This document shows, in pieces, positions 26,444-30,906 of a DNA stretch of 46,730 bases. Made by a program: the position numbers and the translations under genes. Numbering within the stretch: position 1 is the first letter of the stretch; each line of letters begins with the position of its first letter. The stretch comes from Acidobacteriota bacterium (lineage in GTDB: Bacteria > Acidobacteriota > Blastocatellia > HR10). The notes under the pieces were generated by a model. The model made no database searches. It saw only the letters and a list, made by a program, of their open reading frames with translations, and was not told the DNA's origin. The stretch is from positions 1-46,730 of the forward strand of contig JAUQQC010000017.1 in NCBI GenBank assembly GCA_030550025.1. Reading direction: 5' to 3'.

Positions 26444-27133
26444 TCACTCCTCGTCCGATCGGGCGCGGAAGAGCACCACGGCAGCCAAGATGAAGGCGAA
26501 GGCCGGAAAGCTCGTGACCGGCGAGAGATCGATGGGCCCGTCCGCCGAAGCCATCACCTGCGCGAGGATCAGCAGCACGGCACTCAGCAGGAAGAGATAG
26601 CCGACGATGACTTCCAAAAGGTGCCGGCTCTTCTGGAAGAGGAATCCGTAGAGGGCATAGGCGACAATGCTCGCTCGATTGACCAAGAGCCCATGCAACA
26701 GGTGCAGGTCCAGAAGCCGACGCGCTTCCTGGATCAACTCTAATCGCGCCGTGTACTCGGTCGTCGCGACGAAGCGAAGCGCTACCGAGGTCAGCTGATG
26801 CCCAGACGTTTGCCGGATCAGGAGGATTCCGCTCAGGAGAATCCCCGAGAGCAAGGCCAGCAGCGAGAGATACCGCGCTCGATGATGAAGGTAGAGGTAG
26901 AAGGCGAACATCAACGAGATCATGAGCAGAACAGGCAGATAACTCACCAGTACAAGCAGGTGCGGGCCACCTCCGGCGAGCCGCCGCAAGAGGTGTTCCA
27001 GGTCCTCTTCTGACAAGCGTTCCAAGGCGCGCGCGCTCAAGAGCCCAGCGCTCCAAAAGAAGTTCGCCGCCACTCCCAAACAAAAGAGCGCGTTCATTCG
27101 GTAGAAGAGCCGTTCGGTATCCATCATCGGCAT
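26444..27133 (-). CDS. Multi-pass membrane protein of unknown function
   Basis: 229 residues. Hydrophobic segments suggest about six membrane helices: NALFCLGVAANFFWSAGLL, LVLVSYLPVLLMISLMFAFY, LSLLALLSGILLSGILLI, LEVIVGYLFLLSAVLLILA and FPAFAFILAAVVLF among them. Charged loops are Arg-rich. It shows no motif I recognise. The start is taken as the ATG at 27133, which overlaps the gltX stop as TGATG; ATG 27127 is also possible. Overlap with gltX implies co-transcription rather than shared function. Confidence 0.7.
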   Translation of the reverse strand: MPMMDTERLFYRMNALFCLGVAANFFWSAGLLSARALERLSEEDLEHLLRRLAGGGPHLLVLVSYLPVLLMISLMFAFYLYLHHRARYLSLLALLSGILLSGILLIRQTSGHQLTSVALRFVATTEYTARLELIQEARRLLDLHLLHGLLVNRASIVAYALYGFLFQKSRHLLEVIVGYLFLLSAVLLILAQVMASADGPIDLSPVTSFPAFAFILAAVVLFRARSDEE

Positions 27134-28659
27134 CAGCGCGACGGCGATTCTGCTCGCACGCGCTCGGCCCACGTCAGGAACGTCCGAAGCCGTTCGCGCA
27201 CTGAGGGGATCGGTTGGGGGAGAGGGAGCGTCGAACCGATCTCGTAGATCGGGACGAGTTTGTCCAACTCCGGCCCGGAGGGACGGCCGGTGAGCGCGAC
27301 CCGAATCGGGTGAAAGAGGGCGCGTCCTTTGCGTCCCGTCTGTTCGCGGACACGAGCGGCCGCCGCGCGAAAAGTCTCGGTCGTGACCTCGGGGACATCG
27401 GCCAGTTCCTGTCCCAATCGAGCGAGGACATCGAGGGCGCCCGGATCCTCCACGACTTCCTGAACCTCCGGGTACGCGAGCGCGGTCGAGAGCTCGTACT
27501 CGAAGATGATCCGCGTCTCCTCGACGATCTGCGAGAGATGCTCCAGATGGGTGAGCACGGCGTCTACGACGCGGCGGAGCCATTCTCGGGTCGCTGTATC
27601 CACGGGTGTGGGGAGGCGTCCCGCCCGTTGCAGATAGGGCAGGACGGCCGTCACCAGCTCATCAAGCGGTTTCGCCTTCAGATAGGTGCGATTCATCCAC
27701 TTGAGCTTCTGTTGATCGAAGATCGCCGGCGCCTTGGAGACGTTCTCCAAAGCGAACAGCTGCAAAAGTTGCTCGCGCGAGAGGATCTCGCCGACCTCTT
27801 GCGGCGGCGCCCAGCCGAGCAGGGCGAGGAAGTTGAAGAGGGCTTCGGGCACGTATCCCTGTTCGCGGAATTCGCGAAGCGCCGTCGCGCCGTGTCGCTT
27901 GGAGAGCTTCGTCCCGTCGGCCCCGAGGATCGTCGAGAGATGGGCGAAGACCGGCGGCGTAGCCCCCAAGGCCTCATAGAGCAGGAGCTGCCGTGGGGTA
28001 TTCGGCAGATGCCCATCGCCGCGGATCACGTGCGTGATGCGCATGAGCAGATCGTCTACGACGACGGCGAAATTGTAGACGGGCCAACCGTCGGATTTCA
28101 GGATGACGAAATCCCCGATGACCTCAGCATCCCATCGCACGGGACCGCGCACGACGTCCTCCCAGACGATGGACCCCGAGCGCACGCGAAAACGCAGCAC
28201 GTGGGGCTCTCCCGCTTCCGCTCGCTCGCGCGCCTCCGAGTCGGGGAGGCGCCGACACCGTCCCCCGTAGCGATACGGACGGTTCTCCGCTCGCGCGCGT
28301 TCGCGTTCCCGTTCTAACTCCTCTTCCGTGCAGAAGCACCGATACGCCCAGCCCGCGTCGAGCAACCGCTCGGCATATTCCCGATAGAGGGTCAGGCGTT
28401 CGCTCTGCCGATACGGGCCGAAGTCTCCGCCAACATCCGGGCCTTCATCCCAATCCAGGCCGAGCCAGCGCAAGTCTTCCAGAATGTGCTCCTCGTACTC
28501 TCGGCGCGAGCGCTCCACGTCCGTGTCCTCAATGCGCAGGATGAAGCTGCCACCGCGCTGTCGCGCGAAGAGCCAGTTATAGAGCGCCGTCCGCACGTTT
28601 CCAACGTGAAGCTCTCCCGTTGGACTTGGCGCGAAGCGTACCCGCACGGTCATGGCCAT
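27133..28659 (-). CDS. gltX: Glutamyl-tRNA synthetase
   Basis: 508 residues of a class Ib synthetase charging tRNA-Glu. The nucleotide-binding motif is FAPSPTGELHVGNVRTALYN and the KMSKS-equivalent is TKLSKRHGATA. LRIEDTDVERSR holds the glutamate-recognition arginines. The C-terminal helical anticodon-binding domain contains HLEHLSQIVEETRI and GRKGRALFHPIRVALTG, as in bacterial GluRS. ATG 28659 and ATG 28653 are both possible; AGAGG is spaced for the first. A membrane-protein gene overlaps the stop. Confidence 0.95.
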   Translation of the reverse strand: MAMTVRVRFAPSPTGELHVGNVRTALYNWLFARQRGGSFILRIEDTDVERSRREYEEHILEDLRWLGLDWDEGPDVGGDFGPYRQSERLTLYREYAERLLDAGWAYRCFCTEEELERERERARAENRPYRYGGRCRRLPDSEARERAEAGEPHVLRFRVRSGSIVWEDVVRGPVRWDAEVIGDFVILKSDGWPVYNFAVVVDDLLMRITHVIRGDGHLPNTPRQLLLYEALGATPPVFAHLSTILGADGTKLSKRHGATALREFREQGYVPEALFNFLALLGWAPPQEVGEILSREQLLQLFALENVSKAPAIFDQQKLKWMNRTYLKAKPLDELVTAVLPYLQRAGRLPTPVDTATREWLRRVVDAVLTHLEHLSQIVEETRIIFEYELSTALAYPEVQEVVEDPGALDVLARLGQELADVPEVTTETFRAAAARVREQTGRKGRALFHPIRVALTGRPSGPELDKLVPIYEIGSTLPLPQPIPSVRERLRTFLTWAERVRAESPSR

Positions 28660-28776: not shown

Positions 28777-28857
28777 GAACGGCCAAACGGAGGAGGGGAT
28801 TGAGGCCATCGTCCGCTGGTGGTCGGGGATATGGAGAGGGAGGAGGCACAAGAAGCA

Positions 28858-30906
28858 ATGGGCTCGGAACCGGAACTGTACGTCCGCCGCTCGGATGAGC
28901 AAGTCGTGCGCTTTGACCCGCAGCACATCGTGGAGGCGCTGGTTCGGGAAGCGCGCGTGGATGTCGAGTTGGCGACGAAGATTAGCCTGGAGGTCAAGGA
29001 GGCGATCGCGCGCGCGGGCGTGCGCACGCTCAGTTCCTCTCTCATCCGCGAGTTGGTGAACGTGAAGCTTCTGGAGCACAACCTGGAGGCGGCGCATCGC
29101 GCGCATTCGCGTTTGGGGGTTCCACTCTACGACGCCGATCGGATCATTCGACAGAGCGCGCGAGAGCACGAGGCGCCGCCGCACGGGCCGGAAGGGACGA
29201 GCCTCCTTTTGGCCGAAGCCATCAAGCGGGAATATGCGATTCGAGAAGTCTTCTCCGACGTGGTCGCGGACGCGCATCTAACTGGGCGGTTCCATCTCCA
29301 GAGCATCGGCGCGGTGGATCGTCCCGCTTTGCTCGCCAGCTCGGTGGACTATCTCAAGCGCTATGGGGTCGCGCTCCCACATGGGTTCGCCAGCGCGCGT
29401 CCGGCGCGACACCCCGAAGTCCTGCTCGCGCATCTGGTGAAGTTCTCGGCCGCGCTTCACGGCTATTTAGCGGGGCCCGTCGTCTGGGATAGCCTCAACG
29501 TGGCGCTCGCGCCGTATGTGAGAGACGCCGAGGAACGCGATCTGCGCCAATTGGCGCAAGCGCTCATGTTCGAGCTGTCCGCACCGGCCGTCGCGCGAGG
29601 GGGGCAAGTCATCGCGTGCGAAGTGCATCTGGATTGGGACGTGCCGGCATATCTGGCGGCGCGTCCGGCGCTGGGGCCGCAGGGCGAGGAGACCGGCCAG
29701 CCGTACGCGGCCTATGGGGAGATCGCACGTCGGTTCCTGCGCCAGCTCTTGGAAGTTTATCGGGAGGGAGATGCCGAGGGTCGTCCCTTTCTCACGCCGC
29801 GTCTGGTCTTGCATCTGACGGATCGCTTCGCGACGATCGAGGGCTATCGCGAGTTCCTCGATCTCTTGTGTGACGTCCTTGTGCAGCGCGGAGGCGTGCG
29901 CATCGTCTTCGATCGGGATGAGACGCGGAGCTTCTTCTCGCGATTCGGCGTCCCGTTCGAGGCCGGCCATGAGCGCGCTGAGACCTGGCGATGGCGCACG
30001 GCCGTGCTGCAGGCGATCGCTGTGAATCTCCCCCGTATCGGGTATCAGGCCCAGGGCGATGTGCTCGCCTTCTTCGAGCAGCTCACCGACGTGATGGAAT
30101 TGGTGGCCCAAGCGCATTTGGAGAAGCGCATCTTCCTGGAGAAGCTGATGGCTCTGGGCGAGGCGGGACCGCTTGCTCTTTTGGCCCTGCGTCGTGAGGA
30201 CCTGACGTTCCTCAAACTCACCTGGACGACGCATCTCATCTGCCCCTTCGGGTTGGACGAAGCGGTGTGGTTGCTCACGGGGCGGCATCTGCATGAGTCC
30301 GATCAGGCCGTAGAGATGGCCTTGCGCATCACGGCGCACTTGGTGCGAGAGGCTGAGCGCTTGAGCGCTAAGCATAAAGTTCGGTTCGTCGTGGCGGATT
30401 CGACGGATGAGGTGGCCGCCGCTCGGTTGGCGCGCCTGGATTTGCGGTCTCCGTTCGCCGCGCGTGCCGCCGAGACGGTCTCTGGGGATGCGGAGCGAGG
30501 CGAAGTATACTACAGTCGGCCCTTCAAGGTGCTCCCGCAAGCTGCTGTGCGCGCCCTCGAGCGCGTGCGCATCGAAGGATTGCTTCACGACTTCGGATTG
30601 TTCGGCGTCATAACCCCCATCTGGTTGGGAGAGAAAGTGACGGCGGCAGAGCCACTGGCGGCGCTCATCTCCCGCGGATTCTTCCAAACGCATTCGGCGG
30701 GCATTCTACCCGCGCCGGAATTCACGCTCTGCATGGAGTGCGGACGCTGCGCGCGGGGTCTGTATCGGCAATGTCCGCATTGTCACGGCGTGCGGCTTGA
30801 TGGTCTGGCGCTAGGCGCGCAGACCTTCAGTCGCCTCTCGACATGGAATCGGGGTCTTCTGGCCGAATGGCGAAATCGCTATCGTGTGGATGAAGACCTG
30901 GGGTGA
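28858..30906 (+). CDS. ATP-cone protein of the anaerobic ribonucleotide reductase (NrdD) family, probably inactive
   Basis: 682 residues. An N-terminal ATP-cone (YVRRSDEQVVRFDPQHIVEA onward) senses dATP/ATP in reductases. NrdD landmarks follow: RGGQVIACEVHLDWDVP, EGDAEGRPFLTPRLVLHLTD, VNLPRIGYQAQGD, EVYYSRPFKV and LYRQCPHCHG with CMECGRC (the zinc site). Two essential parts are altered. The MCCRL-like active-site cysteine stretch reads SFFSRF (about 358-363; codons 29929-29946). The glycyl-radical motif RVxGY is not recognisable; only LALGAQTF precedes LSTWNRG. No nrdG activase gene is adjacent. The start is ATG 28858, with GGAGG 11 bases upstream. It looks intact and expressed, so a regulatory pseudoenzyme is more likely than a decaying gene. 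Confidence 0.72.
   Translation: MGSEPELYVRRSDEQVVRFDPQHIVEALVREARVDVELATKISLEVKEAIARAGVRTLSSSLIRELVNVKLLEHNLEAAHRAHSRLGVPLYDADRIIRQSAREHEAPPHGPEGTSLLLAEAIKREYAIREVFSDVVADAHLTGRFHLQSIGAVDRPALLASSVDYLKRYGVALPHGFASARPARHPEVLLAHLVKFSAALHGYLAGPVVWDSLNVALAPYVRDAEERDLRQLAQALMFELSAPAVARGGQVIACEVHLDWDVPAYLAARPALGPQGEETGQPYAAYGEIARRFLRQLLEVYREGDAEGRPFLTPRLVLHLTDRFATIEGYREFLDLLCDVLVQRGGVRIVFDRDETRSFFSRFGVPFEAGHERAETWRWRTAVLQAIAVNLPRIGYQAQGDVLAFFEQLTDVMELVAQAHLEKRIFLEKLMALGEAGPLALLALRREDLTFLKLTWTTHLICPFGLDEAVWLLTGRHLHESDQAVEMALRITAHLVREAERLSAKHKVRFVVADSTDEVAAARLARLDLRSPFAARAAETVSGDAERGEVYYSRPFKVLPQAAVRALERVRIEGLLHDFGLFGVITPIWLGEKVTAAEPLAALISRGFFQTHSAGILPAPEFTLCMECGRCARGLYRQCPHCHGVRLDGLALGAQTFSRLSTWNRGLLAEWRNRYRVDEDLG

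Follow-up and report, generated by a model that had tools for sequence, protein, structure and literature searches.

A conserved NrdD-like protein of Blastocatellia that has lost the catalytic residues of ribonucleotide reduction

The window, a 46,730-nucleotide stretch of DNA from an Acidobacteriota bacterium of the class Blastocatellia (contig JAUQQC010000017.1), encodes a protein that is related, by sequence and by predicted fold, to the class III ribonucleotide reductases (NrdD) alone. Because the residues that carry out their chemistry have been lost, yet the gene has been kept intact across the class, a group of bacteria from soils and hot springs, the protein has almost certainly acquired a different job, one that is hitherto undescribed. 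The explanation that we consider probable, if far from assured, is that of an ancient NrdD-derived pseudoenzyme, long kept, that acts as a binding or scaffold protein.

The gene and its divergent neighbor lie as follows.
28831..30906, plus strand: coding sequence of the pseudo-NrdD, 691 amino acids from an ATG at 28831, open reading frame intact
27133..28659, minus strand: gltX, the divergent neighbor, not conserved across the family and given for context only

A preliminary description of this DNA had regarded the gene as intact, started it at 28858 and called it promoter-driven. The frame is indeed unbroken over 691 amino acids, with a match to the Pfam family NRDD (PF13597, 3e-66) over residues 116–652; the alignment of homologues and the ATG of close relatives, however, favor the start at 28831, and no sigma-70-like promoter was found upstream, in a spacer that close relatives conserve in part. 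(Residues are numbered throughout from the Glu codon at 28834.) The NCBIfam equivalog model for NrdD, TIGR02487, gives 194.4 bits, below its cut-off of 326 bits, and canonical Acidobacteriota NrdDs run alongside have NRDD scores of 623–643 bits.

The AF2 model of the protein (pLDDT 82.6, pTM 0.78) has class III NrdDs as its top structural matches, namely 4u3e_B (Z 35.8, rmsd 3.1 over 520) and 8p2s_B (Z 34.8, rmsd 2.7 over 523), and other glycyl radical enzymes reach a Z of at most 22.3, which bears out the NrdD barrel proposed earlier. The zinc site proposed with it also holds, as the four cysteines of the putative zinc ribbon are the only invariant cysteines in the family.
30730..30783, plus strand: retained zinc-ribbon cysteines 633, 636, 647 and 650, where local canonical relatives have C-x2-H

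Losses were called by aligning the family, with 26 Blastocatellia homologues, to 13 canonical NrdDs. The altered sites read as follows in that alignment.
29188..29202, plus strand: PEGTS (residues 119–123), which hardly varies in the family and falls in the area that holds the NxN flap in canonical NrdD
29293..29331, plus strand: HLQS (residues 154–157) where the HxHD triphosphate motif has been lost, a new DRP (162–164) and Leu166
29929..29946, plus strand: SFFSRF (residues 366–371), in which Phe368-Ser369 occupy the columns of the canonical cysteine pair
30820..30825, plus strand: Gln663-Thr664 at the site of the former radical glycine, where most other members of the family have Asn-Arg

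Where the window protein reads SFFSRF, canonical Acidobacteriota NrdDs carry MCCRL, as the preliminary description had recognized, and the alignment shows the loss of cysteine to be family-wide: neither column of the SCCR/MCCR pair has a cysteine in any of the 26 homologues. Both cysteines of SCCR are essential in Thermotoga maritima NrdD, as judged by mutagenesis (PMC4493059). Near the C-terminus, where RVxGY had been reported missing, GLALGAQTFSRLSTW aligns opposite the canonical YSR[IV]VGYLRPVxxW, and the family as a whole shows no conserved glycine at that site. The preliminary description had overlooked three further losses. The second conserved active-site cysteine (Cys125 in T. maritima) is Leu166 here and A, S, T, L or N in the family, with cysteine in none of the 26 homologues; PEGTS stands in place of the NxN flap; and the HxHD motif is gone (canonical roles of the HxHD and second-cysteine region from PMC4493059). 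It had allowed for another cysteine and glycine at the catalytic sites, and neither is conserved there among the 26 homologues.

That the protein is still a radical enzyme, either an aminoacyl radical enzyme (AARE) with Thr, Ala or Ser in place of glycine or a ribonucleotide reductase with displaced catalytic residues, is very improbable. Thr664 does precede an aromatic residue, and close relatives have Thr or Ala there, as in AAREs (PMC11528403), but Arg or His stands at that position in most family members. Moreover, AAREs keep a catalytic cysteine and an adjacent activase, both of which this family lacks, and their authors, in whose survey all class III reductases encode glycine, report no non-glycine class III enzyme (PMC11528403). 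The preliminary description had noted that no nrdG adjoins the gene; the same is true of the whole genome, in which the best match to NrdG, nearby or elsewhere, reaches 26 bits where the cut-off is 126. Many Blastocatellia genomes of family f4 have one to six NrdG-like radical-SAM genes at about 100–121 bits, below that 126-bit cut-off, and no NRDD gene, and one f7 genome has such a gene at 124 bits. Three of these loci are L078 (G321, f7), L079 (G354, f4) and L080 (G251, f4); in L078 and L079 the NrdG-like genes adjoin a DnaN-like (sliding clamp) paralogue.

Relatives at 44–93% identity occur across Blastocatellia. An NRDD gene is present in 34 of the 162 Blastocatellia genomes searched, exactly one in each, and all matches fall at 190–275 bits; thus no canonical NrdD (about 600–640 bits) was found in the class. 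Each of the six f1 genomes carries the pseudo-nrdD, which also occurs in f2, f5, f6 and f7 and in part of f3; it was found in none of the f4 or f8 genomes among the 162. Distant homologues (about 30% identity) are found in two other lineages of the Acidobacteriota, the phylum that the survey covered: in f71 the pseudo-NrdD is the sole NRDD gene, and f20 has it alongside a canonical NrdD that scores about 600 bits. In a maximum-likelihood tree a very long branch (length 2.69, support 100/100) separates all pseudoenzymes from the canonical NrdDs, with a warning from the program that long branches join f71 and f20. An origin from viruses, plasmids or phages was considered and rejected, as sequences from these sources include no close relative and only canonical NrdDs at 22–30% identity. 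Two database records in this survey are irregular. A metagenome-assembled genome labelled Actinomycetota (L008), whose contig is named WN_Acidobacteria, carries a typical Blastocatellia pseudo-NrdD, and its label is probably wrong. In the f20 genome G276 the canonical nrdD (L092, 2493–4756) is split over two frames, by a sequencing error or a frameshift; the gene is whole in the relative G013, and the adjacent nrdG-like gene in G276 is intact.

Pairwise dN/dS values of 0.07–0.13 (12 pairs) indicate that the gene is kept by selection. With this strong purifying selection and the family-wide loss of catalytic residues, the earlier reading of the protein as a pseudoenzyme stands. The lost catalytic motifs might be those of a decaying pseudogene that is still open by chance; the dN/dS values refute this, the gene is intact in nearly all carrier genomes from six families, and family-specific motifs are invariant, so we give decay almost no credence.

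The N-terminal region proved different from what had been described, a complete ATP-cone with a nucleotide-sensing role.
28879..29103, plus strand: degenerate ATP-cone (residues 16–90), with KRDG changed to [RQHS]-S-D-E and the C-terminal helix missing
29104..29124, plus strand: HSRLGVP (residues 91–97), aligned in place of the canonical cone helix YILYRxxHxxxRE

The match to the ATP-cone profile PF03477 is weak (31.7 bits, profile positions 2–78 of 88; canonical Acidobacteriota NrdDs score 76–88 bits for the cone), and in 26/26 homologues the KR of KRDG has become a variable residue followed by an invariant Ser and the last helix is absent. In Prevotella copri NrdD, Lys7, Arg8, Tyr83, Arg87 and Arg91 contact or neighbor the nucleotides (PMC11226230), and when this numbering is transferred to the family through the alignment the ATP/dATP ligands are found without counterparts, a result that leaves some room for the binding of another nucleotide. 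Because the KR motif is replaced and the Tyr/Arg/Arg helix is missing, the cone sequence makes it unlikely that the protein senses ATP or dATP in the established manner. The cone part of the AF2 model is of low confidence, and distant f71 homologues have lost the cone roof entirely.

A sensor whose cone binds ATP or dATP and regulates the cell's ribonucleotide reductase must nevertheless be weighed, since a recognizable remnant persists under purifying selection (dN/dS 0.02–0.18 for the cone, about 0.1 for the barrel), and since it is the sole ATP-cone in its own genome besides that of NrdR. Neither a class I R2 nor a canonical NrdD was found in that genome, which has two class II NrdJ genes, both without an ATP-cone; this gene complement indicates that its dNTPs are made via class II NrdJ. 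The second NrdJ is short (G000:C22, L082, 2878–4659; 593 aa, TIGR02504 742 bits, no ATP-cone), the other having 922 aa. One further ATP-cone match lies in a 175-aa frame, taken to be NrdR. The main nrdJ has tandem NrdR boxes upstream (14/16 and 11/16, 31 bp apart), scored against the general NrdR-box consensus; in L081 (G000:C29) they read CCACAATATCTTGTGA and AGCCAGCATATTGTGC, and the nrdJ of G132 (L084) has the same arrangement. Upstream of the pseudo-nrdD no NrdR box was found (best 8/16, background 9), and membership in the NrdR regulon was rejected for the gene.

Other carriers differ in their reductases, and no single class accompanies the pseudo-nrdD. A Chloracidobacterium-type genome has class Ia NrdA with its own ATP-cone, and in Chloracidobacterium nrdAB occurs in all species and nrdJ in some only (PMC12816986). 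A cone supplied in trans to a cone-less reductase would suit the window's own genome, but it fails in the Chloracidobacterium-type genome and was set aside. A nrdJ lies 2.5–4 kb from the pseudo-nrdD in one genus (f71), which favors the sensor, and there is no other conserved reductase neighbor. Taken with the family-wide loss of the KRDG Lys/Arg and the Tyr/Arg/Arg helix (roles from PMC11226230), the missing cone roof of f71, the lack of an NrdR box and the NrdA cone of Chloracidobacterium-type relatives, these data lead us to regard the ATP/dATP sensor as improbable. They also tell against the suggestion in the preliminary description of a regulatory partner for an aerobic reductase, given that the reductase classes are mixed (class II only, or class Ia with a cone) and that a reductase is a neighbor in one genus only.

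All-against-all comparison of the flanks of 19 loci, and then of 26, gave neighbors specific to subclades, and the search for a conserved genomic or operon partner across these loci came back negative. The neighbors are thiD, with a 4-bp overlap in some members, and carB downstream in f7; divergent purN in f3; gltX/mPPase in f1; dnaK-dnaJ in f20; and nrdJ in f71. In four f20 genomes (L132, L133, L134 and L091) the distant pseudo-nrdD ends a cluster that we take, from inspection by eye, to be hrcA-grpE-dnaK-dnaJ, and its overlap of a few bases with dnaJ suggests translational coupling to the heat-shock operon.

Several residues unlike those of canonical NrdD are conserved in the family, some of them in the following features.
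29224..29238, plus strand: KREYA (residues 131–135), a family-specific invariant partly common to the distant f20 and f71 homologues
29626..29634, plus strand: His265-Leu-Asp267 on the loop-2 strand, with His265 invariant in the family and Thr in its place in canonical NrdD
29812..29814, plus strand: His327, family-invariant where canonical NrdD has Asn

The family-specific invariants include K131-R132-E133, D162-R163, W218-D219, N222, H265 and H327, and D267 is retained from canonical NrdD; DRP, KR[EQ][YF]A and P[EA][GA]T are partly common to the f20 and f71 homologues. These residues underlie the main rival explanation, that of a repurposed enzyme in which the NrdD barrel has come to house a new active site that uses no radical, lying for instance around His265/Asp267 and His327, with Cys262/Cys470 in most members. 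Invariance of several such polar residues in the 26 Blastocatellia sequences and the long-term retention of a single copy speak for it, as does the near-conservation of Cys262 (23/26) and Cys470 (21/26), neither of them a zinc ligand. The distant f20 homologues, however, lack the whole loop-2 segment that bears His265, f71 has Asp there, and the two cysteines are not universal (the AF2 model of a distant f20 homologue, at pLDDT 48, was too poor for use). We judge a repurposed enzyme possible, though rather unlikely. Loss of the two cysteines coincides in the f3 clade, as though they formed a pair; frequent as they are, they do not occur in all members and were rejected as alternative catalytic cysteines. 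A broader proposal, which we offer tentatively and rate slightly lower still, is that an NrdD barrel shed its radical chemistry early in the history of the Acidobacteriota and then gained a new, conserved site for non-radical catalysis or for ligand binding (His265/Asp267, His327, KREYA, DRP). The outcome would be a new family of enzymes or sensors, spread over six or more families of Blastocatellia and two distant lineages within the phylum.

We favor a scaffold or regulator pseudoenzyme over both the repurposed enzyme and the ATP/dATP sensor. Sequence and model together suggest that the protein retains the barrel, zinc ribbon and C-terminal loop domain of NrdD and has lost the radical glycine, active-site cysteines, triphosphate motif, substrate flap and nucleotide ligands of the cone. 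Ribonucleotide reduction would be impossible for such a protein, which would presumably work by binding, most likely as a scaffold or regulator whose remodelled cone and vacated barrel hold a protein partner or else a non-canonical ligand. Counted against the scaffold reading are the polar invariants His265, Asp267, His327, Lys131, Arg132, Glu133, Asp162 and Arg163, which could form a new active site, and the variation of neighbors by subclade, which points to no partner.

Ribonucleotide reductases are, to our knowledge, regarded as strictly conserved at the radical cysteine, and a literature search for NrdD pseudoenzymes found no paper describing any. A long-lived bacterial pseudoenzyme family of this kind would show that the reductase barrel is separable from nucleotide reduction. 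The annotation 'anaerobic ribonucleoside-triphosphate reductase' is probably wrong in Blastocatellia, and anaerobic dNTP synthesis should therefore not be inferred from it.

Among known systems, the class III NrdDs (T. maritima NrdDh and P. copri NrdD) have the same barrel fold and motif order as the pseudo-NrdD and share with it GDxxGxxF and INLxR as well as the zinc ribbon and the C-terminal loop domain; the pseudo-NrdD differs in lacking SCCR/MCCR, the second cysteine, the radical glycine, the NxN flap, HxHD and NrdG, and its cone looks non-functional. Like AAREs, in which Ala, Ser or Thr takes the place of the radical glycine (PMC11528403), it belongs to a family of glycyl radical enzyme fold with that glycine replaced, but AAREs, which are of the PFL branch, have a thiyl cysteine with an activase next to them, whereas the pseudo-NrdD family, of the NrdD branch, lacks both. 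The repressor NrdR likewise combines a zinc ribbon with an ATP-cone; it is small and DNA-binding with an intact cone, in contrast to the large barrel and degenerate cone described here. The NrdB-borne ATP-cone of L. blandensis is a precedent for a cone that regulates a reductase from another polypeptide, although it keeps all dATP-binding residues, which the pseudo-NrdD cone does not (PMC5794259). The class I R1 homologues of betaherpesviruses are viral proteins that target host signalling and are not homologous at the level of the pseudo-NrdD family; having lost reductase activity and come to bind host proteins, they offer a precedent for the large subunit of a reductase that persists, without catalysis, as a binding protein (PMC11772975).
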